Positions 1 through 38,905 of a stretch of DNA of 38,905 nucleotides are shown here, piece by piece; the stretch's first letter is position 1; each line of letters starts with the position of its first letter. The notes under the pieces are model-generated. The model searched no databases. It was not told the DNA's origin and was given only the letters and a program-made list of their open reading frames with translations. The stretch is from a virus: the IMG/VR virus record IMGVR_UViG_3300031754_000010, positions 1-38,905 of that record, one strand, 5' to 3'. Made by a program: the position numbers and the translations under genes.

Positions 1-26
1 TTACCTTCGTCTGTATCTGGGAATTC
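1..26. repeat. Terminal direct repeat, left copy
   Basis: Bases 1-26 are identical to bases 38880-38905 in the same orientation. An open reading frame continues without interruption across the join, so this is the overlap of a circular assembly or of a circularly permuted genome. It is too short to be a typical phage direct terminal repeat. Both copies end in a GAATTC site, which may be coincidence. Confidence 0.95.
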
Positions 27-959
27 GTTAGAATGGCACACTCCCCAAGCTCCAAGTACACCGTAGTAGTTTGTTACTTCCCCCATAGCTTCGAAGCGCT
101 TCTTTAGGCCACCGAAGGCTTGCAACATGTCAATCAGGCCGGCGGTCTTGGCGCCCTTTTTGGGCTTTTTGTCGCCGTACATTTCGATGCTGGCTCGAAG
201 TTGGGCGGCTAAATCAATAGCTGGAATCTCATCCTCACTGGGCATCGGCTCTTCAGGGACTTCCTCATAATATACCGGGCCTTCAGGGATCTCTTTTTGC
301 GCCGCCTTTACCCGTGCCTTTAGCTCCCGATCTTTCTTGAATGCGGCCAATTTTAGCTCTGCTACGGCCTGGGCGGCTTCCTTTGATCCTGCTGGATTCT
401 CCGATTGGCCCATTTCATCGGCGGTATACATGCCGGAAAGATCTTGCGGGAAAGCTGCCCGAAGGCTCAAGGCTTCAGCGCATTTTGCAAGCTGATTAGA
501 TGGCATCCGTGCCCAGAACTGAGTTGGTGTATTATCCTTTGTCTGAACGTATTCACTCCACTTAGCGATGCGATAGAGAGCCTGCCTAAAGCCAGTACGG
601 AATGTTCCAACCTTAGCTGCAATCGGAGGCTGATCAGAGATCCAGACATCATGCCAAATACCGTCTTCGCCGCACCAATAGGGGCCGTCTTGCCCTTCAT
701 ATCGTCCAGTACGCTCAGCGATGACCCGGAATCCATCAATGGATGTCTGAGTAGTCATCACTTCACGGCCAAGCTTCTTATCCCATCGCTTTACGGCATA
801 GATCTGTTTGGCGAAGGGATCTAGCCCGGTACGCTGGCAGATATGCTGGAATAATTGCAATTCATCGTCTGTTGCGCCCCTGCAAACCGTCCGCTTTATC
901 AAGTCGAGCTGTTCGGGAGTGAACAGGGCTGCGGCTGGGGCAGTTAATGCTTGGCTCAT
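1..959 (-). CDS. bet: Bet/Red-beta family recombinase, N-terminal 319 codons (continues at 38879)
   Basis: This is a single-strand annealing recombinase of the phage Bet (RecT/Red-beta-like) family, which anneals complementary single strands during phage recombination. Translation from ATG at 959 gives a start rich in TPEQLDLIK and then the family hallmarks: [73 protein letters not shown] and [14 protein letters not shown]. The frame is open through base 1 and rejoins at 38879, ending in TAG at 38777-38779, for 353 residues in total. That is longer than the usual 260 or so, the extra being a charged C-terminal extension. The start overlaps the stop of the upstream 63-residue gene (ATGA). No lambda-type exonuclease partner is seen; the VRR-NUC-like gene at 34881-35180 is the nearest candidate nuclease. 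The family call is secure. Confidence 0.93.
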
Positions 960-1147
960 TCGGCCTCCAGTGCTGCAAATGCGCGGTCTATCTCTTCGTC
1001 CTGTAGCTCCTCGCCGCAATCAGGGCATTTGAGGATCGTTCCGGCATCGTAATAGCCGGTTTCGGAGTCGCAGCAGTGATAGTAGTGCGTCAAGGTCGCG
1101 TTCTCGCTACCGCAAGTGGGGCAGTCGCATCTATCGGTGATAATCAT
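956..1147 (-). CDS. Small zinc-ribbon-like protein (63 aa)
   Basis: A short acidic protein with two CxxC knuckles (CPTCGS near residue 10 and CPDCGEE near residue 42) plus HYYHCC between them, which looks like a compact zinc-binding fold. I chose ATG 1147 because a longer reading from 1288 would lie inside the neighbouring gene in another frame. Its stop overlaps the bet start as ATGA, so it is probably translationally coupled to bet. The function is unknown. It belongs to a run of Cys-rich early genes (956-1958). Confidence 0.7.
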
Positions 1148-2161: not shown

Positions 2162-2191
2162 ATTCTTTCACTCATGGGGGCGAACTGTCAA
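2162..2191 (-). promoter_or_regulatory. Putative early leftward promoter
   Basis: On the minus strand there is a perfect -35 TTGACA (2191-2186), an 18-base spacer and a -10 AAGAAT (2167-2162; 4 of 6 consensus bases). It is correctly placed to drive the RHH-like gene and the long early operon that runs through bet. Confidence 0.6.
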
Positions 2192-11616: not shown

Positions 11617-11795
11617 TACGCCCCCTTGTTGTCGTGCGGATGACGCCAGCCATCCGCGCGCGCCGCCTTCTCTTCAGCGGCATTCTTGACGGTGCGCTCA
11701 AGGTCGCCTTTAACCAGGAACTTCGGGTACGGAGTCCCGGCGGGAGCGGCCTTGGGCATGTCGCCTACTGTGACTGCCTCTCTTTTAGGTGGCAT
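11616..11795 (-). CDS. Hypothetical small basic protein (59 aa)
   Basis: MPPKREAVTVGDMPKAAP..., ending WRHPHDNKGA. It starts at ATG 11795, on the last base of the exported-protein gene, and stops as TAATG with the next gene. A charged helix (DLERTVKNAAEEKAARADGW) fills the second half. It is too short to assign, but the coupling on both sides supports it. Confidence 0.62.
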   Translation of the reverse strand: MPPKREAVTVGDMPKAAPAGTPYPKFLVKGDLERTVKNAAEEKAARADGWRHPHDNKGA

Positions 11796-12670
11796 TAGTA
11801 AAGTGCTCCAAGCGGCCCGGTAGCGGTAGTAAAGCTGCTGGGCGGGGTGATGGTGGTCGGAATGGTACCAGATGTGCCGGTCTGACTACCGGCCTGTTCG
11901 CTCAATCCAAGCTGTCCGGTAACGTATTTCTGAACCAGGGCGGTAGTTCCGTTGCTCTGGAAGCCGATAAAGAACGAACGTAAGCCGCTGATTTCGATTG
12001 GCGTAAGCAATGGCTGGCACTGATATTGATTGGTACCAGCAGCCAGGGTAGCGGCTGTTTGTCCCAGGAGGTTCCCGGCATAGTCGTAGATAAAGAAGAT
12101 GTGGTTGTCGGTACCTACGGTTCCACCATTCAGCATGCAGATTCCATTTACCGGGCGGCTATGCTCAACGGCAATCTCACTGATGTATAGCGTTCCGGCT
12201 ACTGGAGCCGCCGAACTGGAGGCCGGGCCACCAAATACAGGTTGCGGACTGTTCAATGGTGCTGGGCTGGCATCCTCTACAGGAAATAGGTTCAGGGCGA
12301 TTGGCCTGGAAGTGTCGCCCGTGTTGGTAGCCGGGTTGCCAATCCAGATCACTGAGCCGTTGGCGTGCTGCTGGGTCGGAGTTCCAAGGCGGCCACGAAA
12401 GACGCGGAAGCAGGTAGCGGAATTACCCGATCCTTGAACCTGGAGCATTTCACGGTCGATAAACAACATCGACCCGGTTTGACCACTGGTCAAAGACGGC
12501 ACCACAACGCCGGTCGCAGAAGCAAGGCAAGCCTGAGTTTGAGTAACGGTAACTACCTGCGATAGGGTTGTGGTCCCTACCAACGGGTTGCTCACAGGAA
12601 ACCCAAAGGTCTGGAACTGCGCGAAAGCCGCGCCCGTGGTAAACGCGAAAGTTAGGAGTAGTTTTTTCAT
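11795..12670 (-). CDS. Exported phage protein with signal peptide, in the head gene block (291 aa)
   Basis: It begins with a clear Sec signal peptide (MKKLLLTFAFTTGAAFA, cut before Gln). The mature part is Thr/Ser/Gly-rich beta-type sequence with IDREMLQVQGSGN, RVFRGRLGTPTQQHANGSVIW, YISEIAVEHSRPVNGICMLNGG and FFIYDYAGNLLGQTAATL. The 'RG..GT....H..G' stretch resembles phage fibre or decoration domains. It lies immediately downstream of the coat gene, where decoration proteins are often found. A cleavable signal on a protein in this position is odd, since heads assemble in the cytoplasm. Confidence 0.72.
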   Translation of the reverse strand: MKKLLLTFAFTTGAAFAQFQTFGFPVSNPLVGTTTLSQVVTVTQTQACLASATGVVVPSLTSGQTGSMLFIDREMLQVQGSGNSATCFRVFRGRLGTPTQQHANGSVIWIGNPATNTGDTSRPIALNLFPVEDASPAPLNSPQPVFGGPASSSAAPVAGTLYISEIAVEHSRPVNGICMLNGGTVGTDNHIFFIYDYAGNLLGQTAATLAAGTNQYQCQPLLTPIEISGLRSFFIGFQSNGTTALVQKYVTGQLGLSEQAGSQTGTSGTIPTTITPPSSFTTATGPLGALY

Positions 12671-21195: not shown

Positions 21196-23562
21196 TTAGT
21201 GTACCCACGCGCCATTTTCCCGGAAGCAGGTACGCCCCGTGGAGGCTCCGGCCGTGCATGTCGAGTTACAGTCGGTGCAGAAGATTTGCGAGCCGTTGCT
21301 TGGCCCCAGGCTGCCTGAAGTGATCTGAGCGAAGGTAAGCCCGCTTATCATGTCGATAAACGTAGACGTTCCTAGGTACTGTGTCGTTGTGCCTATCATC
21401 TGGTTATCTGAAACCTCCAGAGAGCCGGAGTTGCCGGAACTGAACAATATGCCATTCGTCGATCCGCTGATCCTGTTCCCTTGAATCTTGATTCCGTTAG
21501 TGCTGGCTATATTCACGCCTGTGGTTGTCGCCGATATAATGTTGTTGGAGATTGACATGTTTGTTGTTCCGGCCCCAACACTTATCCCTATATTGCTGCC
21601 GGTCGCAGAAGCTATTTGACTCCCGGTAACCAAGACGGTCTGAACCAGCCCGGTAGTGTTCAGCCTGACAACTCGCACACCCACCCCAGAGAAGAGCTCC
21701 AGCGAGCAATTCGTTATCACGAAGTCCGACGTGTTAACGCCATCGGCCGCAGCGATATTTATCGAATAGGTGTGATTGAGTATCTTGGTGTTAGCGATAT
21801 ACAGCCCGCCGCCTGACTCCCATTCTATCCCGACCCCAGTGGTTATTGAATTATCTATGAACGTATTGACAATGGAGTTGTCACCCGCATCCGTACCGTT
21901 GGTATTCTGAATGTAGATGTCAAAATTATGCCCAGCCACAATGTGCGCGCTAACTATAGACCACTGTCCAGCACTTACAGAGTGGATGCAGTTCCATTGT
22001 CCTTGGCATAAGATACTATCCATCACGGCGCCCTTGCCGGAAACACCACCCGCGCCGTTTAGCTGAATCGCATCGCCCGCTGTCTTGGTCGGTGCCGTGC
22101 TGAAATTGCAGTTAGATACCTTAAACCTTTGAGTGGTAGTAGTTACAGTTGATACAAGGATATTCTGGGTAGCGCTGTTGGCCTGGAGAATGGCATGGTT
22201 AGATGCGCAGATTACATTGGTATCTCCAGTAACATCGATTTCGGATTGAAGCACGTAAGTCCCATCAGGAATGAAGATCGTCGGGCTTACATTGGCTGCT
22301 TCTTTTATGCCCACGGTCGCACTTGAAACATTCCATGCCCCGCTATGCGTGCCGCCGGCTGTGAACGTGATCGTTCCAGTAGAAGAGCCGGATGTGCAGC
22401 TTCCCCCGGTGATTGCGTCCGCCTCGGCCGTTCCCACACCACCGGAAATATAAATGAAGTGATTGGTATCTGTGCCATTCAGGCCCAGTGGGCACGGAGT
22501 CAGGGTGATGGTGTTAGAACCCGCCGAAAGGGAACCGCCAGGGGTTTGCGCTGGGAAGTTGTAATCCACCACATTAACGTAGTCCTTGGTGGCGAACTGC
22601 AAAGTAGTGTTGTTTCCCGTATTCGGCTGTAGGCGTAGGAATTGAGTTTGTGTGCCGGTCGGCAGCGAGTTTCCTTCCACTGTCCATGTGCCAGGAGATC
22701 CTACCGTGGTGCAGCCCCAAACGTTCTGCCCCGCCGTAGCATCGGTCTGAAAGTAGGTTTCCCCTACCGTGGCGCAGTTGTCGCGCCCATTGGGGCTGCC
22801 AGTTCCAGAACGGTTGGGAAGCGTTTTGGTGGACCCATGCAAGTCAGTAACACCGCCGCTGAAGGTATTGGTGGACCCATTAAACGCGCTGGTGCCACTG
22901 AATGTGGTACTCGAGCCGTTAAATGCGTTAGTGCCAGTCCAAGTATTGTTGGAGCCTAATAGGCCCACGCCCGCCGATGCAAGATCAGTAGAACAGATTG
23001 CCCTGAAACCGGGGCTCCCGCTGGCTCCGCAAGGAGAAGCATAAAACAAATCGGCCCCCTGTGCCGGAAAGTTGGGGGCCGTAGGTGAGAGTCCAACAAT
23101 TTGGGTGAATGGCGCCAGATAAACGAACACGGTACCTTTGGCACCTGCTACTGCCTGCCCGGTTATGGATAGGCTGATACTGCCAAAGATTGGCGGCGAA
23201 GTCGGTGAGCCTACGAATCCCTGCGCATTCGATGAGCTTACATCAGCGGAGGCCGCGCCAGCCATTACGTCAACTCCGGCCGCATCCAGGAGGGCAATGG
23301 AGTAGTTATTCGTGGGCGCTGGAGATCCAGGCGTAGTCTCCATGTTTACAACGCGGTAGCCCTGCACTAGTGGAATGCTCTGCGATTGCACCAAAGTCAC
23401 CGGAACAGTACCGTTTACCGAATCGCCGGTCCAGTACAGTGCTACCGTATAGATGCCGCTGCTACCGACCTGCTGAGTGCTCTGCTGAACCGTCCCTACG
23501 GCTCGGGCAATGCCGCTTATGGCCAGGAGTGCTAGGATCGTCTTCATGCTCGTCAGCTGCAT
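21196..23562 (-). CDS. Exported tail-spike-like beta-helix protein (788 aa)
   Basis: It begins with a signal peptide (MQLTSMKTILALLAISGIARA). AAGGAG five bases before ATG 23562 fixes this start. Residues 24-150 form a beta domain shared with the upstream gene at 23571 (PGSPAPTNNYSIALLDAAGVDV). Residues about 190-260 hold repeats of NGSSTTFSGTSAF type. A head-binding-like part follows (ATKDYVNVVDYNFPAQTPGGSL). From about 430 to 720 there is right-handed beta-helix sequence (FVITNCSLELFSGVGV, NNIISATTTGVNI). It is probably a receptor-binding or polysaccharide-degrading spike; catalytic residues cannot be placed. Confidence 0.75.
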   Translation of the reverse strand: MQLTSMKTILALLAISGIARAVGTVQQSTQQVGSSGIYTVALYWTGDSVNGTVPVTLVQSQSIPLVQGYRVVNMETTPGSPAPTNNYSIALLDAAGVDVMAGAASADVSSSNAQGFVGSPTSPPIFGSISLSITGQAVAGAKGTVFVYLAPFTQIVGLSPTAPNFPAQGADLFYASPCGASGSPGFRAICSTDLASAGVGLLGSNNTWTGTNAFNGSSTTFSGTSAFNGSTNTFSGGVTDLHGSTKTLPNRSGTGSPNGRDNCATVGETYFQTDATAGQNVWGCTTVGSPGTWTVEGNSLPTGTQTQFLRLQPNTGNNTTLQFATKDYVNVVDYNFPAQTPGGSLSAGSNTITLTPCPLGLNGTDTNHFIYISGGVGTAEADAITGGSCTSGSSTGTITFTAGGTHSGAWNVSSATVGIKEAANVSPTIFIPDGTYVLQSEIDVTGDTNVICASNHAILQANSATQNILVSTVTTTTQRFKVSNCNFSTAPTKTAGDAIQLNGAGGVSGKGAVMDSILCQGQWNCIHSVSAGQWSIVSAHIVAGHNFDIYIQNTNGTDAGDNSIVNTFIDNSITTGVGIEWESGGGLYIANTKILNHTYSINIAAADGVNTSDFVITNCSLELFSGVGVRVVRLNTTGLVQTVLVTGSQIASATGSNIGISVGAGTTNMSISNNIISATTTGVNIASTNGIKIQGNRISGSTNGILFSSGNSGSLEVSDNQMIGTTTQYLGTSTFIDMISGLTFAQITSGSLGPSNGSQIFCTDCNSTCTAGASTGRTCFRENGAWVH

Positions 23563-23570
23563 TTGTCTCC

Positions 23571-24494
23571 TTATTCGACGTCGTATCCGCTTAGGGATAC
23601 GGATTCAGAAACAGTAGTCGCCGAAGCATTGAATTCTAAGGTCATCGCCGTAGCCGCGGAACCAATGAGATTCAGCCCGCAGAATGAGAACGTGGCATAT
23701 TGCCCCACAACAGTAGTAGTGGCAATCTCTTGAGTCCATAGCACTGTTCCAGCACCGGTTGCCCCATCTCTGAGATTCACGCTTACTTGAGCCGCCGCCG
23801 CTGGGGTAGCAATGGAGCCCGCCGAGAACGACACGCAATCCGCCACATGGCGCACGCCCGCTGCTCCCGCCGCTTTAGATATCGTTGCCTGAGCACTGGC
23901 GGCCGGCTGCGAAAAGATTCCCCAGCGGGCGCCCTTTTCCACCACACCAGGCGTAACGTTCAGAGCCGAAGTGAGCGTAGCCGCAGTGCTGTTTGGGTAG
24001 AGCGAGACCTGGCCCCCCACAATCGAATTGCCGGAACCAATGAACACCAACACTGTCACATTGGCCGAATTGACCGAATTGCCGGTGATGTTCAACGTCT
24101 CCAATCCGTTGATTGGCGTCGCGGCGGCTCCCGTAGCGAATATCTGCGCCCCTGAGGCATTAAGGTTGGTGGCATTACCGCCTAGCTCATCAACACCATT
24201 AGAATCTGTGATCGTCACCTTATAGCCTGCCGTGGGCTGCGTGGCACCAGGCACAATCTCAACGCGGGTAATGTAGAATCCTTGGAGCTGTTGCGCAGTG
24301 CTGAGCAGTCCTGGAATTGTAGTAGCGGGAAATGATCCGGTGGAGGCATCGCCAACGCAGGTAATAGTTGTCACAAACGGCTGACTATTAGTGTAGACCT
24401 GGGTTTGCCCTATAGGAGTGGGGCCAGTAACCGTGCAGGTCCCCACGGCCCATGCCTTGGCTACGAAAACAGCCGCAAGTAGGTATCGTTTCAT
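23571..24494 (-). CDS. Exported beta-domain protein, paralogue of spike N-terminus (307 aa)
   Basis: The signal peptide MKRYLLAAVFVAKAWA is followed by a domain (17-165) homologous to residues 24-150 of the 788-residue spike: PGATQPTAGYKVTITDSNGVDELGG aligns with PGSPAPTNNYSIALLDAAGVDVMAG, and ETLNITGNSVNSANVTVLVFIG with SLSITGQAVAGAKGTVFVYLA. This domain is common in phage structural proteins. The C-terminal half is a second beta domain (FSAGSIATPAAAAQVSVNLRDGATGAGTVLW). ATG 24494 overlaps the previous stop as ATGA, with GGAG upstream. Confidence 0.72.
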   Translation of the reverse strand: MKRYLLAAVFVAKAWAVGTCTVTGPTPIGQTQVYTNSQPFVTTITCVGDASTGSFPATTIPGLLSTAQQLQGFYITRVEIVPGATQPTAGYKVTITDSNGVDELGGNATNLNASGAQIFATGAAATPINGLETLNITGNSVNSANVTVLVFIGSGNSIVGGQVSLYPNSTAATLTSALNVTPGVVEKGARWGIFSQPAASAQATISKAAGAAGVRHVADCVSFSAGSIATPAAAAQVSVNLRDGATGAGTVLWTQEIATTTVVGQYATFSFCGLNLIGSAATAMTLEFNASATTVSESVSLSGYDVE

Positions 24495-24682
24495 CTGAAT
24501 GGCTCCGTCAAAAGGTAATACAACCTGATCCACCTGGCGCAGATGTCACATGGGGATTTACTGCAGCCGGCATGGTTATGTTTAACAAGAAATGTAAACT
24601 GCTCCAAGGCCACATCCCAAGGAGTGGGCTGCTCGATGTATTCAGGCCGCTTTGCCGGGCTACTGGGAGTCGCTCCCCACAT
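24491..24682 (-). CDS. Small Cys-containing protein (63 aa)
   Basis: MWGATPSSPAKRPEYIEQPTP..., with HNHAGCSKSPCDICARWIRLYYLL near the C-terminus, a possible zinc site (H-x-H, C, CxxC). The stop overlaps the start of the next exported-protein gene as ATGA, which supports this reading over those in other frames. The function is unknown. Confidence 0.6.
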   Translation of the reverse strand: MWGATPSSPAKRPEYIEQPTPWDVALEQFTFLVKHNHAGCSKSPCDICARWIRLYYLLTEPFR

Positions 24683-32736: not shown

Positions 32737-33236
32737 TTGTAGCCCTCCGTAAATGTTTTGAGCCAGTCAGGCGTGGACCGGCTTTCCGTTTTGGTTACCG
32801 GCTTGGAGAAATTGCCATTTCTGGTTTTAAAGCGATTTAGGGCTTCCACTAAACCAGGATGTCTTTGGGCCTGCCACACGCCCATTTCGCATTTGCACCA
32901 CACGCGGAGTTTAGATTTTGGATCGTCCAGGTGGCCCCAATCACCGCAAAGCTTGCAAGTCGGGGCCTCTGGGGGCGGCATCGGTTTGTATTGATTAGAC
33001 GGGGGAATCTCCGGGTTGCGCCGGTCATAAAGCATTTCCGCCAAGCGATGCGGGCCGCGCCAAGATTCCCATTTCAGTTGCGCCTCGTTCACAAGCCAGC
33101 GGGCTTCTGATTCGTTCCAACATAGCGATTCCAAATGCCGAGCGATAGCCCGAATAGCTTCCTCAGATCTAGGAGTTTCAGGAATAGTGGTAAGCTCCCC
33201 GGCTAGGTTAAAGGCCATTTCACGATTAATAGGCAT
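32733..33236 (-). CDS. Replication accessory protein, possible helicase loader (167 aa)
   Basis: It starts MPINREMAFNLAGELTTIPE, with helices around RAIARHLESLCWNESEARWLVNEAQLKWESWRGP and LAEMLYDRRNPEIPPSNQY, then a zinc knuckle (CKLCGDWGH, CKCE). Proteins of this kind often follow a DnaD-like initiator in phages and are thought to aid helicase loading, though no ATPase motif is present here. It overlaps the replication gene by 11 bases. The role is inferred from order. Confidence 0.6.
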   Translation of the reverse strand: MPINREMAFNLAGELTTIPETPRSEEAIRAIARHLESLCWNESEARWLVNEAQLKWESWRGPHRLAEMLYDRRNPEIPPSNQYKPMPPPEAPTCKLCGDWGHLDDPKSKLRVWCKCEMGVWQAQRHPGLVEALNRFKTRNGNFSKPVTKTESRSTPDWLKTFTEGYK

Positions 33237-34068
33237 TTCGTTTCCTTTGTTCCTCCAGTTCCCTCATTCGCGCATATTCCGCGGCCCGTTCCTCTGATTT
33301 GCTCTTGGGAGAATCGCGGGCCACTGCCCAATTTCCCTGCCATTTGTTCTCATACTGCTGGCGCAGCCACTTCCAGCCGGCCATTACCACCCCACGTTTC
33401 ACCTGATCGCTACGCTTGTAGCGTTCCAGGCAGGCAAAACATGCCTCTTCGGTTTCCGTCGTCACCAGCGAGAGATACTCCCGTACAGTGCTCGCCCGGT
33501 CTGACTGCTCGGGGTAAGCATCTGCAAATTCCACGGAACGCTGGCTGGTTTGCCCTTGAAGGTCTGCTGCTCGCGGCATCTCACGCACACCCACCGCTTC
33601 TGTGTGTGTGTCTGTTCTGTTCTGTATCTGTTCTGTTCTGTTCTGTTCTGTTCTGGGAGTTTCAACCGTTACAGGCGTTTCATGGCCTGTTTCATTTGTT
33701 TCATCGCGTTTCATACCGTTACATTTGGCATTAAGTGCTTTGTTTTCTCTATGGCGTTTTACGCGCTCCGTGGATACGTCGCCATACTGCCGCTTTACCC
33801 AAGCAGCCACCCTAAAATCGGTCAGCATGCCGCGCTCACTCATGGCGACCAAGATCCGGTCCACTGTCAGTATCGGAACGTCAGTTTGAAAGGCAAGCTG
33901 CTCGACGTCTAGTCCTTCGATGCTGCCCCTATCTTCATTTTGCGAAGCATAGTCGAGGAGCGATATCCAAACCCAACCGACTTCGCACTTCTTGGCCTTA
34001 GCCACTCGCGCGATTAGACACAACTTTGCATCATGAGAGATCCCGTGATGAGCGCGCCACCAATTCAT
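33226..34068 (-). CDS. Phage replication initiator-like protein, DnaD/winged-helix type (280 aa)
   Basis: The N-terminal domain MNWWRAHHGISHDAKLCLIARVAKAKKCEVGWVWISLLDYASQ, then DVEQLAFQTDVPILTVDRIL and AWVKRQYGDVSTERVKRHRE, is a winged-helix layout typical of phage replication proteins. A low-complexity linker (TEQNRTEQ) is encoded by a pentanucleotide repeat. The C-terminal part (CFACLERYKRSDQVKRGVVMAG, WLRQQYENKWQGNW) resembles DnaD-like helices. AAGGGGA precedes ATG 34068. The leader carries two large hairpins. It probably recruits host replication proteins. Confidence 0.75.
   Translation of the reverse strand: MNWWRAHHGISHDAKLCLIARVAKAKKCEVGWVWISLLDYASQNEDRGSIEGLDVEQLAFQTDVPILTVDRILVAMSERGMLTDFRVAAWVKRQYGDVSTERVKRHRENKALNAKCNGMKRDETNETGHETPVTVETPRTEQNRTEQIQNRTDTHTEAVGVREMPRAADLQGQTSQRSVEFADAYPEQSDRASTVREYLSLVTTETEEACFACLERYKRSDQVKRGVVMAGWKWLRQQYENKWQGNWAVARDSPKSKSEERAAEYARMRELEEQRKRNAY
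33597..33656. repeat. TG dinucleotide and TTCTG pentanucleotide repeats in the replication gene
   Basis: A (TG) run at about 33600-33610 is followed by about nine TTCTG units broken once. The repeat lies inside the linker of the replication gene. Each unit lost or gained shifts frame, although all frames encode a similar Glu-Gln-Asn-Arg-Thr repeat. Confidence 0.8.
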
Positions 34069-34086
34069 TCGATTTCCCCTTGTTAT

Positions 34087-34132
34087 CCCGTGTCGGTCGG
34101 CAGCCACAAGGGAGGCCCCGACCGAGCACGGG
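34087..34132 (-). ncRNA. Leader hairpin 2 of the replication gene
   Basis: CCCGTGTCGGTCGG (34087-34100) pairs with 34118-34132 over 14 bp with one bulged G. The 17-base loop has GCC/GGC that may pair further. It ends 18 bases before the replication start codon, just before the Shine-Dalgarno. It could be a regulatory RNA structure or an origin hairpin. Confidence 0.55.
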
Positions 34133-34450: not shown

Positions 34451-34711
34451 TTATTCTTCCTCGGGGCTCGGTGTCTGCTCCGGATTATGCCCATTGCAGC
34501 TATTCCGCCCTTCACGAGGGCAGAAACAGCAATCTTTATGGCACTTTGGCGAACACCATGGCTGCTTCTTGGCCAGATGGGCGCAGCTCTTCATGCTGCA
34601 GGGGGCGCCCTCCTTGGAAATGTCGCATTTGGTATTGCCGGCCCGCGCATAGCGCCAAGTCAGGCCGCCGGAGCCAATCAACAGCGTCCACGATAGGATT
34701 AGTGCTTTCAT
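34451..34711 (-). CDS. Exported Cys-rich protein (86 aa)
   Basis: MKALILSWTLLIGSGGL is a signal- or anchor-like segment followed by WRYARAG. The next 45 residues hold nine Cys (TKC, PCSMKSC, WCSPKCHKDCCFC, SCN), probably disulfide-bonded or metal-bound outside the cytoplasm. The end is acidic and Pro-rich. ATG 34711 overlaps the stop of the two-TM gene as ATGA, so the two may act together at the membrane. Confidence 0.62.
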   Translation of the reverse strand: MKALILSWTLLIGSGGLTWRYARAGNTKCDISKEGAPCSMKSCAHLAKKQPWCSPKCHKDCCFCPREGRNSCNGHNPEQTPSPEEE

Positions 34712-34875
34712 GGGTTTTTCTTTTCTCTAGAAGATGCCAAGAAGGCCAGCGCTATACCCAAAAGGCTGCCGATAAGCGGGGGCGCCCACCAGCCCAGAAA
34801 TCCAAGCGATGCTCCCATTACAAGTCCGACCGAAGACCCTATAATGAACTGCGCCGCCGTCCGATCAGTTGCCAT
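34708..34875 (-). CDS. Two-TM small membrane protein, holin candidate (55 aa)
   Basis: It begins MATDRTAAQ. FIIGSSVGLVMGASLGFLGWW and PPLIGSLLGIALAFLA give two membrane segments with several small-xxx-small motifs, then a charged end SSREKKNP. This size and layout match class II/III holins, though small membrane proteins of other roles look alike. GAGGG precedes ATG 34875. It is coupled to the exported Cys-rich gene by ATGA. Confidence 0.6.
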   Translation of the reverse strand: MATDRTAAQFIIGSSVGLVMGASLGFLGWWAPPLIGSLLGIALAFLASSREKKNP

Positions 34876-34880
34876 AACCC

Positions 34881-35180
34881 TCATACCCTCCCACAGCTTC
34901 TAGCGTGCTCAAGGACCGCCTCAACAGCCTCATTCGGGCTGGTAACGATCGCATAAGGCCCAGGCCATCTACTAGCGAATTCTCTCTCGGCCTCGGTGGG
35001 GCCTTCTTTGTAGCGCTTAACTTCTAGGACCATGCACACGCCCCGGAAGCCAGCAAGGATATCGGGCAGTCCATCACCTACAGAGGCGATGGAATGCGCC
35101 GCGATGCCGGCCTGGCGCAGCCCATTGATAATTGCCGCATGGTTCAGATCTACTCTCCCACGGTGCCCAGTCCTATTCAC
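34881..35180 (-). CDS. VRR-NUC-like nuclease (99 aa)
   Basis: RVDLNHAAIINGLRQAG, then VGDGLPDILAGFRG (D40) and MVLEVKRYKEG (E53, K55), carry the PD...ExK nuclease core of small VRR-NUC/Holliday-resolvase-like phage proteins. The start is GTG 35180, with AGAGG upstream inside the previous gene. The first residues (VNRTGHRG) mirror the start of the upstream homing gene (MNRTGHKG). It may process recombination or replication intermediates and pair with Bet. Confidence 0.78.
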   Translation of the reverse strand: MNRTGHRGRVDLNHAAIINGLRQAGIAAHSIASVGDGLPDILAGFRGVCMVLEVKRYKEGPTEAEREFASRWPGPYAIVTSPNEAVEAVLEHARSCGRV

Positions 35181-35736
35181 GTGATTTCCTCTTATTCCTG
35201 GCCTGCTCCAACCATGTAGCCCATCGACAGTTCGCAGGCTCATAATTCCCAAATGGGTTAATGCGATCCAAAGTATGAGATGGGCTCGGTTTTGGACCAA
35301 TGTCGCGCAGGAATGCAGAGAAATCATTGATCCATTCCTGGCAAATCGTTACCCCAAGAGCCCCATACCATGGATAGCCGTATGTCTTACTGTTCAGGCA
35401 TCGCTGTTTCATGGCCGCCCAGGCGTTATATTCCAATGACCCGCAAGCCTTATGTTTTGTGGATCGCTCGATGGTAGTCTGCCGTTTCCAGCAACCACAT
35501 GAGCTGGAGTCCCCATTCCGCAAATGTTTGACGGTTACTGTAGACCTCGTCCCGCAATCACACACCACAGCGGCCAAACGCTGGCCCCATTTATTGCGAT
35601 CCAAGATAGCCCCAACCGTCCATAGGCCGAACCGCCGGCCAATCATTTCTTCAAGCCCCATTCGATGTCGGCCATAGAAGGCAACACGTTTTGGGGTTAG
35701 CTTCTCCACACACCCTTTATGTCCGGTCCTGTTCAT
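35173..35736 (-). CDS. Putative homing endonuclease of the LDRI-NYEPxNCRWAT type (187 aa)
   Basis: A beta zinc part (VVCDCGTRSTVTVKHLRNGDSSSCGC) precedes a domain with EYNAWAAMKQRCLN, YPWYGALGVTICQEW and SHTLDRINPFGNYEPANCRWATWLEQARN. This C-terminal signature is a widespread phage mobile-nuclease family (His-Me finger like). AAAGGA lies 5 bases before ATG 35736. Its first residues MNRTGHKG resemble the start of the nuclease downstream, suggesting insertion into that gene's 5' end. It overlaps the nuclease start. Confidence 0.78.
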   Translation of the reverse strand: MNRTGHKGCVEKLTPKRVAFYGRHRMGLEEMIGRRFGLWTVGAILDRNKWGQRLAAVVCDCGTRSTVTVKHLRNGDSSSCGCWKRQTTIERSTKHKACGSLEYNAWAAMKQRCLNSKTYGYPWYGALGVTICQEWINDFSAFLRDIGPKPSPSHTLDRINPFGNYEPANCRWATWLEQARNKRKSRE

Positions 35737-35817: not shown

Positions 35818-36345
35818 CTAAATTTTATATGTGTTGTTACAGAAGCCTTCTACATTTGTGATTCTGTAAGGCGTGCCCCAGTTTGCGCTCCGGCCTATGT
35901 CCCCGAATAGTGATCCGGCTTCCTGATTGGATTGAACTGCTGATGTCATACCATCGCCAGGATTAGAGCCCCAGGCCCATCCTGTTTGCTCGATATGGTC
36001 CAGATTGCTATCCGAGCGCTCAGAAAATCCAGATGACACAAGCGAGAATTTGATCCCATTGCATTGTGGCGTGATATTTTGTATCCCCAGTACTCCCCCA
36101 ACCGTACGGCCCCACGGCGTAGTCCAGGTACAGGGCGGCAGGGGCGACGGAAACCCAGGCATCGGGATGCCGTTAGAGGTATATGCCGAGCCTTGTACTT
36201 GGACGGTCTGGTAGAGCTGTAGCGTGCCCCCAATGGCCTGATCTCCAGTGTAATTCCATAGCCAGACATCTGGGCTGTATGTGGGACATCCCTGCGCATG
36301 GGCAAGGCCAAGCGCCAAGAACAACAATGCGATAGCTGTTTTCAC
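35818..36345 (-). CDS. Exported protein A of the secretion operon (175 aa)
   Basis: The signal peptide MKTAIALLFLALGLAHA is cut before Gln. The mature part is Gly/Ser/Asn/Trp-rich beta-type sequence with Cys at the beginning, middle and end (QGCPTYSPD, PPCTWTTPWG, ITPQCNGIKF, GFCNNTY), so disulfides are likely. Start and previous stop overlap as ATGA. It has no enzyme motif that I recognise. Style and signal resemble secreted proteins of soil Acidobacteriota. Confidence 0.68.
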   Translation of the reverse strand: MKTAIALLFLALGLAHAQGCPTYSPDVWLWNYTGDQAIGGTLQLYQTVQVQGSAYTSNGIPMPGFPSPLPPCTWTTPWGRTVGGVLGIQNITPQCNGIKFSLVSSGFSERSDSNLDHIEQTGWAWGSNPGDGMTSAVQSNQEAGSLFGDIGRSANWGTPYRITNVEGFCNNTYKI

Positions 36346-36953
36346 TGATTTTCTCCTTTCACATCTGGCAATGAAGCCAGGCGCGCGAGCGCCGCGTCAG
36401 CCGCTTGTTCTCCTTCGTTCTCCCTGATTACCAGCAGCACATGAGCCGTTACGCCTCGCTCAATCCGCTTACCGTGCTCCCTGGCCATATTGCGATCTTC
36501 CTCCATAAGCCTGTACTTGTCGGAAAGATACTGAAAGTCACGTGCCACGCTTCTCCATTTGTAGAGCTGGCTGGTGAATTCCTGGCGCCAATAGTCAGTT
36601 CCCACAAAAGACCCGTCGGCAAATAGCACCGCCACGAGAGAATAGCCAAGAACCTGATCGCGTCCGCCAGGATTAGTAAAGAACGATTGTGATATCCCCA
36701 GTGAATGCTCTTCTCCTGGCATGACCATGCCCTTGGCCAGCCTATTAATGTCCAGGTTCAGGTTTGCCTCGCTATAGCCAGCAAAGTTCTCGTTAACAGC
36801 CCAAGCCAGGATCGGCTTATCGGAATGGTTGACAATCGTAGGCTGGTCAGTTGGACCGCCGATAAAAACTCCGTGGGAGTCATCGACTCCGCCAACTACG
36901 TTTTGCGCGGCAGCACACAGGCTGAGCGCTAAAGTCAACATTAACGTTTTCAT
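36342..36953 (-). CDS. Exported protein B of the secretion operon (203 aa)
   Basis: The signal peptide MKTLMLTLALSLCAAA is cut before Gln. The mature protein begins NVVGGVDDSHGVFIGGPTDQ, then a beta part (TIVNHSDKPILAWAVNENF, FADGSFVGTDYW) and long helices at the end (RLMEEDRNMAREHGKRIERG, ADAALARLASL). The NVVGGVDD string also ends the exported protein at 37515-38159. ATG 36953 overlaps the previous stop as ATGA. The function is unknown. Confidence 0.68.
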   Translation of the reverse strand: MKTLMLTLALSLCAAAQNVVGGVDDSHGVFIGGPTDQPTIVNHSDKPILAWAVNENFAGYSEANLNLDINRLAKGMVMPGEEHSLGISQSFFTNPGGRDQVLGYSLVAVLFADGSFVGTDYWRQEFTSQLYKWRSVARDFQYLSDKYRLMEEDRNMAREHGKRIERGVTAHVLLVIRENEGEQAADAALARLASLPDVKGENQ

Positions 36954-37117
36954 GATTTTCCTTCGTTTCGTTCCTTTCGTTCTAATTTAAGTGCCTTTAT
37001 CGTACCGTATAGCCTCCGGTCTGATTCGCGCCTGAGCTGTCGGCACCTCTCAGGATTACGAGCACGCCAGCGTTTTACGGCTTCATACATACGCTTCTTA
37101 CGTTCTTCAGTGGTCAC
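36950..37117 (-). CDS. Small basic helical protein, GTG start (55 aa)
   Basis: MTTEERKKRMYEAVKRWRAR, then NPERCRQLRRESDRRLYG and a Lys/Glu end. The 'RRWRARNPE' helix pattern resembles the N-terminal part of many HNH-type phage proteins, but no catalytic core follows. It starts GTG 37117 over the previous stop (GTGA) and ends ATGA with the next gene. It is the only cytoplasmic-looking product in the exported operon. Confidence 0.6.
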   Translation of the reverse strand: MTTEERKKRMYEAVKRWRARNPERCRQLRRESDRRLYGTIKALKLERKERNEGKS

Positions 37118-37503
37118 TTAAACACCTTCCAGTTGAGAGTCAGTGGCCCAGGCGTGATAGCGGAAGCCGAAATGTTGCAGACCTCGAAGTTCACCGAATT
37201 CTGGCTAGGGAACGAATAAACGCTAAGCCCAGCAAGGTACCCAGTAACCATCGCTGGGTCAGACGCAAATGTGGCAATGATGACATCAGAGCTAGCCAGG
37301 CTAGTTGCCGCTGTGGCCGCCAATGCGCAGGTTCCCGCCGCTATGACCGTTGTGGGCAGTGGTGTGGACCCCGAGATTATCGTGACTTGCTCCACCACCA
37401 CGGCGCCTGATGGACTTACGCCCATTAGATTGATGGTGGTGAAGGTCTGAGCTGCCAGTGTGGCAACTAGAATTGAGACGCCGACTAACATCCAGACCTT
37501 CAT
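37114..37503 (-). CDS. Exported protein C of the secretion operon (129 aa)
   Basis: The signal peptide MKVWMLVGVSILVATLAA is followed by QTFTTINLMGVSPSGAVVVE and beta-type sequence rich in Thr/Ala/Val (TTVIAAGTCALAATAATSLA, VYSFPSQNSVNFEVCNISA). It ends TPGPLTLNWKVFK. The layout resembles a single beta-sandwich. It is chained to the next gene by GTGA. The family is unknown. Confidence 0.66.
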   Translation of the reverse strand: MKVWMLVGVSILVATLAAQTFTTINLMGVSPSGAVVVEQVTIISGSTPLPTTVIAAGTCALAATAATSLASSDVIIATFASDPAMVTGYLAGLSVYSFPSQNSVNFEVCNISASAITPGPLTLNWKVFK

Positions 37504-37514
37504 TTGGCTAACCT

Positions 37515-38159
37515 CTAGTGGTCACTTGGCCCATCGTCCACGCCGCCAACGACATTGGAACCTGCCGGCGGATCAGGGTATGGAACGTAGAACGCCAGAT
37601 TGCCCCATTGGCTAGGGTTGTTGTACTGGTTGTACATAACTAGTGGCTGCCAGTACCGCCCGAGTGACTTCGTGCTGCTGTACTTTTGCATCTTCGACAT
37701 CGGATTGCTAGAGACGTCGACTCCAGAGCACTGAACAGTATAGACAGCCAAAGTGCTGGTATAAAAGATCGGTCCAGTCACATAGCATGTGCCGCTCGCA
37801 ATAGGGACATTGCCAGTAAACCCGCCGCCGCTGTCCCAATTAGCTGATCCCGTCCATGGGCCGCTCAGGTTGACTGACGGTGGCGGCATATAGGGATTGA
37901 TGCACTTTGGCTCGGTGGTCGTGCACGGGAACACGGTGCCAGTGTTATCCGTGAGATAAGCATAAGCCGCGTTCGGGTCGGTGGTGATATTCCCCACGTA
38001 AGAGCAGTTATTCTCTCCGTTAGTGGTGTAATACCCGACTACATTGATGTAAGTCGGGCATGCTGATCCAGTGTAATGGATGCCCGTAAACTGTTGTGGT
38101 GTGGTTTGCGCGCCGGCGATTCCGGCGAGCGTTAACGTGAATAGCAGCAGTCTTTTCAT
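37515..38159 (-). CDS. Exported protein D of the secretion operon (214 aa)
   Basis: The signal peptide MKRLLLFTLTLAGIAGA is cut before Gln. The mature part has six Cys and is Tyr/Asn/Pro-rich (GSACPTYINVVGYYTTNGEN, TVFPCTTTEPKCINPYMPPP), and ends YVPYPDPPAGSNVVGGVDDG. GGAGG 4 bases before ATG 38159 is strong. The last residues (NVVGGVDDGPSDH) look like a truncated copy of the mature start of exported protein B. It is the first exported gene of the operon. The function is unknown. Confidence 0.68.
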   Translation of the reverse strand: MKRLLLFTLTLAGIAGAQTTPQQFTGIHYTGSACPTYINVVGYYTTNGENNCSYVGNITTDPNAAYAYLTDNTGTVFPCTTTEPKCINPYMPPPSVNLSGPWTGSANWDSGGGFTGNVPIASGTCYVTGPIFYTSTLAVYTVQCSGVDVSSNPMSKMQKYSSTKSLGRYWQPLVMYNQYNNPSQWGNLAFYVPYPDPPAGSNVVGGVDDGPSDH

Positions 38160-38539: not shown

Positions 38540-38761
38540 TCACAGCACGGGCCTTTCGCTTTGCCAGCCCTCCTCGATGAAGCGAGTGCTGTCGTCATCC
38601 TCCGAGAGCACCGCCATTGCGGTAGCACGTACCGGCGGCTTGTACCACGCAGGCCAGCTGTTCTCCTCTATTTCCTGACAGTCACGACAAAGGGTAGCAT
38701 TCGGCCGTGCCGCCAAACGCGCCCTGCTGATCTTGGTACCGCAATCGTTACACTTCCGCAT
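38540..38761 (-). CDS. DksA/TraR-type zinc finger protein (73 aa)
   Basis: MRKCNDCGTKISRARLAARP and TLCRDCQEIEE place Cys4, Cys7, Cys25 and Cys28 with the 'C-x2-CG--I--ARL-A-P-A--C--CQ' signature of DksA/TraR C4 fingers. Full-length relatives bind RNA polymerase; this version lacks the N-terminal coiled coil and instead has an acidic tail, so it may only resemble the finger. AAGGAGG lies 5 bases before ATG 38761. It follows bet in the early operon. Confidence 0.82.
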   Translation of the reverse strand: MRKCNDCGTKISRARLAARPNATLCRDCQEIEENSWPAWYKPPVRATAMAVLSEDDDSTRFIEEGWQSERPVL

Positions 38762-38776
38762 ATCCCCTCCTTATCC

Positions 38777-38905
38777 CTACTTACTAACCCCCTCCGATTC
38801 TTCCTGCTTTTTCTTGTAAAATGCCTCTAACTCTCCGCATTCGATGGACATCGCCTTGTAACATTTGCGGGCCTGCGATTTACCTTCGTCTGTATCTGGG
38901 AATTC
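38777..38905 (-). CDS. bet: Bet recombinase, C-terminal part (continues from base 1)
   Basis: The frame that leaves the window at base 1 continues here from base 38879 down to TAG at 38777-38779 (the last 26 bases repeat positions 1-26). It adds about 34 residues, mostly charged (ARKCYKAMSIECGELEAFYK and a Lys/Glu end). This proves the contig ends are adjacent in the genome. It is followed by the DksA/TraR-type gene after 15 bases. Confidence 0.9.
   Translation of the reverse strand, partial: EFPDTDEGKSQARKCYKAMSIECGELEAFYKKKQEESEGVSK
38880..38905. repeat. Terminal direct repeat, right copy
   Basis: Identical to bases 1-26; see the left copy. Joining the copies yields a 38,879-base circle with one uninterrupted bet gene. 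Confidence 0.95.

Follow-up and report, generated by a model that had tools for sequence, protein, structure and literature searches.

A gene cluster for predicted exported proteins, including a free-standing fibre-tip-like domain, in a circular P22-like podovirus

The receptor-masking lipoproteins T5 Llp and phi80 Cor are small exported phage proteins that block adsorption. Both the synthesis and the assembly of tail fibres are taken to occur in the cytoplasm, and the position directly after the tail or ejection genes is normally held by virion fibres. To our knowledge, no tailed phage attaches fibres after export. In phage lambda, the exported protein Lom is encoded beside the fibre genes (PMC12309495). 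Signal-peptide proteins of the fibre type are found directly after the main spike or fibre gene in two cultured phages, Burkholderia phage BcepC6B (gp19, L192:3460-4533) and Xanthomonas phage PBR31 (orf35, L104:24674-25483), where the predicted signal peptides read MKKLIAILLAVPALALG/A and MKKLIALFSLFCTSAFG/A, respectively. The two proteins share 55% identity over their matched parts and are annotated as 'tail fiber protein' (gp19) and 'putative structural protein' (orf35); neither PMC10975493 nor PMC3426561 was found to mention their signal peptides. Their C-terminal tip domain is also found at the end of the PPWS1, KpV74 and Mulvp2 fibres, which lack a signal peptide; in PPWS1 and KpV74 the fibre is T7-like, with a non-exported N-terminus before the tip. 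The same kind of tip can thus stand behind a signal peptide or behind a non-exported N-terminus, depending on the phage. No description of such a replacement of a fibre N-terminus by a signal peptide was found in the open-access papers searched.

The window analyzed here, the entire 38,905 nucleotides of IMG/VR record IMGVR_UViG_3300031754_000010, is the whole genome of a circular P22-like podovirus from soil. Its two ends share 26 identical bases, giving a circular genome in which a RecT-like frame becomes continuous (1..1019, minus strand, across the 26-bp terminal overlap and ending at 38777 when circularised; assigned by eye rather than by a family search). The capsid protein is 35–38% identical to the coat proteins of PBR31, VvAW1 and other P22-like podoviruses, and the terminase is 40–44% identical to those of P22-like podoviruses. 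Searches by 8-mer peptide patterns in viral contigs and genome contigs gave no relatives of the portal, and neither Rfam matches nor tRNAs were found in the window. All major genes lie on the minus strand, as do all features given below. Two signal-peptide proteins, scored by the heuristic described below, are encoded upstream of the terminase genes: one of ~783 aa (21196..23562), which is probably beta-helix-rich and spike-like, and one at 23571..24497; by eye their N-terminal parts look similar. A 58-aa protein with two hydrophobic segments (34708-34884) overlaps a Cys-rich, 86-aa protein with a hydrophobic N-terminus (34451-34711), and the pair is a possible holin and partner. Within a replication-initiator-like gene (33226-34107), a run of TTCTG pentamers occupies positions 33612-33656; with a 5-base unit in the coding frame, slippage could switch the frame.

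The cluster of interest consists of five genes, e1 to e5, flanked by gaps of 116 nt and 90 nt. The gene for a DksA/TraR zinc-finger protein (38540..38761; PF01258, 1.5e-10) lies upstream, and an HNH endonuclease gene (35173..35727; phrog_374, 6.8e-51) lies downstream of e5. A possible promoter (TTGACA, 18 nt, TGAAGAAT; 2162..2191) sits between the ejection genes and the RecT/DksA/e1–e5 module, and is a consensus match only, of a kind found twice against 1.5 expected. The original prediction had described an early operon following a DksA-type gene. The cluster does follow the RecT and DksA-like genes, but all major genes share its strand and gaps flank it, and its expression may be early or late.

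The first gene, e1 (37515..38159), encodes 214 aa with a Sec signal peptide predicted to be cut after residue 17, a mature chain with six Cys and the C-terminus NVVGGVDDGPSDH. The product of e2 (37114..37503; mature part 37449-37117) has 129 aa, made up of a signal peptide of ~18 aa and one fibre-tip-like beta domain with two Cys. A basic protein of 55 aa with a net charge of +11 and without a signal peptide is encoded by e3 (36950..37117). It is followed by e4 (36342..36953), encoding 203 aa with a signal peptide of 16 aa, and a Cys-free mature chain that begins QNVVGGVDD, and by e5 (35818..36345), which starts with GTG and encodes 175 aa with a signal peptide of 17 aa and four Cys in the mature chain. 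The chaining by overlaps that had been claimed for the cluster is found from e2 to e5, through the 4-nt overlaps GTGA (e2/e3), ATGA (e3/e4) and GTGA (e4/e5), while e1 and e2 are separated by 11 nt. The GC and GC3 of e1, e2, e4 and e5 are those of the phage.

Signal peptides were scored throughout by a home-made rule, a fixed heuristic that asks for an n-region, a hydrophobic core and a signal peptidase I site at a plausible start, and by it e1, e2, e4 and e5 all qualify for Sec secretion. Each N-terminus consists of MK, a hydrophobic stretch and AxA before the predicted signal peptidase I site (e1 AGA/QTT, e2 LAA/QTF, e4 AAA/QNV, e5 AHA/QGC). The +1 residue is Gln in all four, and the Cys of a lipobox is absent from this position. 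Neither a membrane anchor nor an outer-membrane anchor is visible in the cassette proteins. Signal-peptide genes make up four of five consecutive genes in the cluster versus 7 of 192 internal-control genes of related loci, and four deposited P22-like phages have one to two such genes per 50–65 genes; the clustering is more than chance. Four signal-peptide proteins and one small basic protein are present as first described, and there is good support for the export of the four and for a site of action beyond the cytoplasm.

A degenerate DNA pattern for NFxVCN-12-LNW, which fixes several residues of the family so sampled, was scanned through IMG/VR and found 94 loci, of which 93 encode the e2 domain at the C-terminus of a protein; the best tblastn match of e2 to these 93 loci was 3e-23. 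The consensus of the domain is TIASGTxALGTxAIxSxACATVVTxxATGxATTDVIxAxFNGDPTAVTGYxPxTxGMLTIIxYPTANNVNFKVCNNTxxSITPGAITLNWRVxR. Both Cys are conserved in the family, the first in 90 of 91 sequences, and only this first one is independent evidence of a disulphide since the second lies within the search pattern. AlphaFold2 with an 82-row alignment gave an all-beta model with a pLDDT of 93.9. Foldseek found nothing below 1e-3 in the PDB, where the best, weak matches are mostly C-terminal regions of tailspikes and of pyocin or tail fibres. Among predicted viral structures it found ten matches with E<1e-3 to uncultured phage proteins, and the matches there are mainly to phage pectate-lyase, SGNH and minor-tail proteins. 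Most homologues have 200–1,800 aa. In e2 both the anchor and the shaft of a virion fibre are missing, and the exported protein is a minimal fibre-tip-like beta domain that stands free. The domain is without a Pfam model, PHROGs gave three stray single-member matches to e2 relatives, the domain was undetected in 50,697 deposited phages, and 8-mer peptide patterns revealed no direct e2 relatives in viral contigs. In public genomes, four of the seven matches to the e2 DNA pattern are Acidobacteriota MAGs, and the domain occurs in 16 of 399 Terriglobia-class genomes.

The e2 family consistently carries signal peptides by the heuristic. A signal-peptide start was found in 62 of the 69 e2-family genes with an in-frame upstream stop, and hence a complete start (~90%), versus 23 of 171 control genes taken from the same loci at least three positions further upstream. 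With the starts of the gene caller, the counts were 63/90 versus 7/192 (Fisher 5e-33). When a Shine-Dalgarno site was required in addition, they were 36/69 and 12/171; this requirement was dropped, as overlapped starts need no such site. The next gene downstream of an e2-family gene is also signal-peptide positive in 63 of 89 cases, often with an overlap of four bases as in the window. Domains of lectin and glycosidase type (LamG, F5/F8 C and arabinofuranosidase) occur in these neighbors. Genes upstream of e2-family genes match portal, capsid, terminase, tail and ejection families, which identifies these records as tailed phages with the cassette usually behind the virion genes. A second exported phage family was seen downstream of e2-domain genes (for instance, L018:762-1724 and L095:12045-14429), in which a motif of the Q-x-PFPGPG type directly after the cleavage site is followed by Gly-rich and lectin-like domains.

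The core of e4 has weak matches in Terriglobia-class genomes. One Terriglobia-class protein used as a query led to 19 places (L147-L165), 15 of them with a signal peptide, which share N-S-x-x-PI-x-A, PG and A-x-FADGS-x-G motifs. When a profile was built from these Acidobacteriota proteins without e4, it matched e4 (residues ~38–128) at E=5e-7, and e4 was its sole match among ~1,190 window and locus proteins. Judged by its sequence, e4 is a phage representative of an Acidobacteriota protein family whose members are largely exported, and this membership also points to an Acidobacteriota host. The Terriglobia-class proteins, of ~220–320 aa and mostly with signal peptides, form an undescribed family and are absent from Pfam. 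They have in common with e4 the signal peptide and the core N-S-PI-A...PG...FADGS-xG-W (FADGS-fG-W in the comparison with e4), whereas e4 is shorter and differs in its N-terminus (QNVVGGVDD) and in having a long helix at the C-terminal end. No e4 was found in deposited phages, nor any direct relative by 8-mer peptide patterns in viral contigs. Structure prediction and structural search, proposed earlier as a check, gave an all-beta, fibre- or spike-like fold for e2; for e4, predicted from a single sequence with a pLDDT of 46.9, the model is usable for one helix only, in the C-terminal half that is predicted to be helical and is confident only there. The description of all exported proteins as Cys- or Gly/Ser-rich beta proteins thus fails for e4, given its Cys-free mature chain and helical half, and their supposed lack of known motifs was wrong for e2, with its tail-fibre-tip-like beta domain, and for e4, with its Acidobacteriota family.

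The proteins e1 and e5 are orphans. Neither has direct relatives by 8-mer peptide patterns in viral contigs, and 250 Terriglobia-class genomes searched for each gave scattered weak matches only; those of e5 were judged on inspection to be chance. The octapeptide NVVGGVDD is found both at the C-terminus of e1 (37515-37560) and at the mature N-terminus of e4 (36880-36910), with 18 of 24 bases identical. The pattern also occurs in three other phage contigs, in none of them in a related protein.

Four export-tagged proteins, one of them a fibre-tip copy and another a member of an Acidobacteria family, suggest that the phage probably alters or occupies the surface of its host. The usual route, cytoplasmic assembly onto the virion, is closed to an exported tip that has no anchor, and its simplest use is outside. 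We consider action on the host envelope, by masking or surface occupation of receptor glycans, to be the likeliest role of the cassette, though only tentatively. In the mechanism that we propose, with export, receptor binding, exclusion and timing all inferred, the cassette proteins would be synthesised by the infected cell and would reach the periplasm or surface through Sec. Outside, e2 would be oxidised and folded, and would most likely bind the surface glycan or receptor recognised by the phage family. Occupation of the receptor by e2 would lead to superinfection exclusion and to less loss of progeny to debris. The phage copy of the exported Acidobacteriota family, e4, would act alongside e1 and e5 on this envelope, by modifying or binding it; e3 is a small coupled basic protein. 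Two findings add weight to receptor masking, already among the roles first proposed: in e2 a signal peptide precedes the fibre-tip-like domain where a virion anchor would be, and e4 comes from a mostly exported Acidobacteriota family. Masking is also favored by the lectin-type and glycosidase domains of neighboring genes, by the exchange of a fibre N-terminus for a signal peptide, with another tip, in BcepC6B and PBR31, and by the location of the window cassette with RecT and DksA, apart from the late genes.

The gene order in relatives weighs against masking, as do the absence of a visible anchor and the lack of relatives for e1 and e5. A syntenic relative, G027 (L108/L109), matches the terminase (8e-137), portal, capsid, head-closure gene and one ejection gene of the window, and its e2 homologue belongs to a series of four or more signal-peptide genes that immediately follows the ejection genes. 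L088 carries a homologue of the window gene at 23571-24497 directly upstream of an e2-domain gene, behind the tail-tip gene. As in many other records, the cassette of G027 comes directly after tail or ejection genes, while in the window the RecT/DksA segment separates e1–e5 from the ejection genes. The proteins might accordingly be accessory virion fibres that are disulphide-bonded and trimmed in the periplasm and joined to the particles at or after lysis, which we regard as a serious but rather unlikely alternative. It would account for the fibre position of the cassette in relatives and for the C-terminal domain of the fibre type. In both genomes the gene directly after that of the major capsid protein encodes a signal-peptide protein (window 11795..12670, by the heuristic), possibly an exported decoration protein; its signal-peptide homologue stands at the same place in G027 (L109:1172-1933). 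Moreover, a PGPG motif lies within the first 25 mature residues in 45 of 253 signal-peptide proteins, with 2 occurrences elsewhere in such proteins; conserved in many of the genes that follow, close to the N-terminus left by cleavage, the motif could act as a docking peptide. Nevertheless, in the window the genes are grouped with RecT and DksA, e4 is like host proteins rather than virion proteins, and an exported protein is out of reach of cytoplasmic assembly until lysis.

Less probable again is that the genes are morons, general exported host-modification genes whose products (secreted adhesins, lectins or envelope-stress proteins) would benefit the infected cell or lysogen without a role in adsorption. 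The likeness of e4 to a host family, the copies of the e2 domain in Terriglobia-class genomes, some of them flanked by seemingly ordinary host genes, and the precedent of lambda Lom (PMC12309495) agree with it. However, the e2 domain has a phage fibre-tip-like fold and is linked to phage tail modules, and the window has no recognised integrase gene. That the cassette is a lysis or release module, with an exported endolysin, spanin-like or surface-clearing proteins, is very improbable. No lysis gene was recognised in the window by the scans made, Pfam and PHROGs among them, which speaks for it. But e1–e5 have no match in Pfam, PHROGs or NCBIfam, no known endolysin or spanin domain among them, and show no lysozyme, amidase or spanin features, and the two-helix 58-aa protein mentioned above is a better holin candidate; the lysis role was rejected for want of domains. 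That the signal peptides, scored by a home-made heuristic only, are false positives, being hydrophobic N-termini that anchor the proteins in the virion or membrane, is hardly credible, since the Lys/Arg, the hydrophobic core and the AxA/Q site recur in dozens of unrelated sequences, with Gln at +1 in 98 of 253 signal-peptide proteins.

Dozens of uncultured phage contigs contain e2-family genes, nearly always with a signal peptide and coupled to further exported genes, which indicates that comparable exported fibre genes are carried by many uncultured phages. It is a plausible but still tentative proposition that many such tailed phages export an adhesin set via Sec, oxidise it in the periplasm, and then join it to virions at lysis or block receptors with it. 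If true, Sec-exported adhesins would, in either use, represent an unrecognised step in tailed-phage biology. The family also gives a functional handle on the surface biology of Acidobacteriota and their phages.

Compared with known systems, the cassette resembles T5 Llp and phi80 Cor in its proposed outcome, although e1–e5 have no lipobox and no sequence link to them. Lambda Lom is an outer-membrane beta-barrel, whereas e1, e2, e4 and e5 are soluble-looking and unrelated to it. Closer in fold are the tips of tailspikes and tail fibres, such as phi297 gp61, LKA1 gp49 and Kp32gp38, which belong to an e2-like beta fold class (weak Foldseek matches, E 0.05–0.5, prob 0.84–0.99) and are C-terminal as is the domain in the large e2 homologues. 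These proteins differ from e2 in being unrelated in sequence and in lacking a signal peptide, and e2 differs from them as a domain alone, with neither anchor nor shaft. The fibre-type proteins gp19 and orf35 end in a tip domain of a different, unrelated family. Because BcepC6B and PBR31 thus carry an analogous gene, the choice among masking, surface modification and a place in the virion is directly testable.
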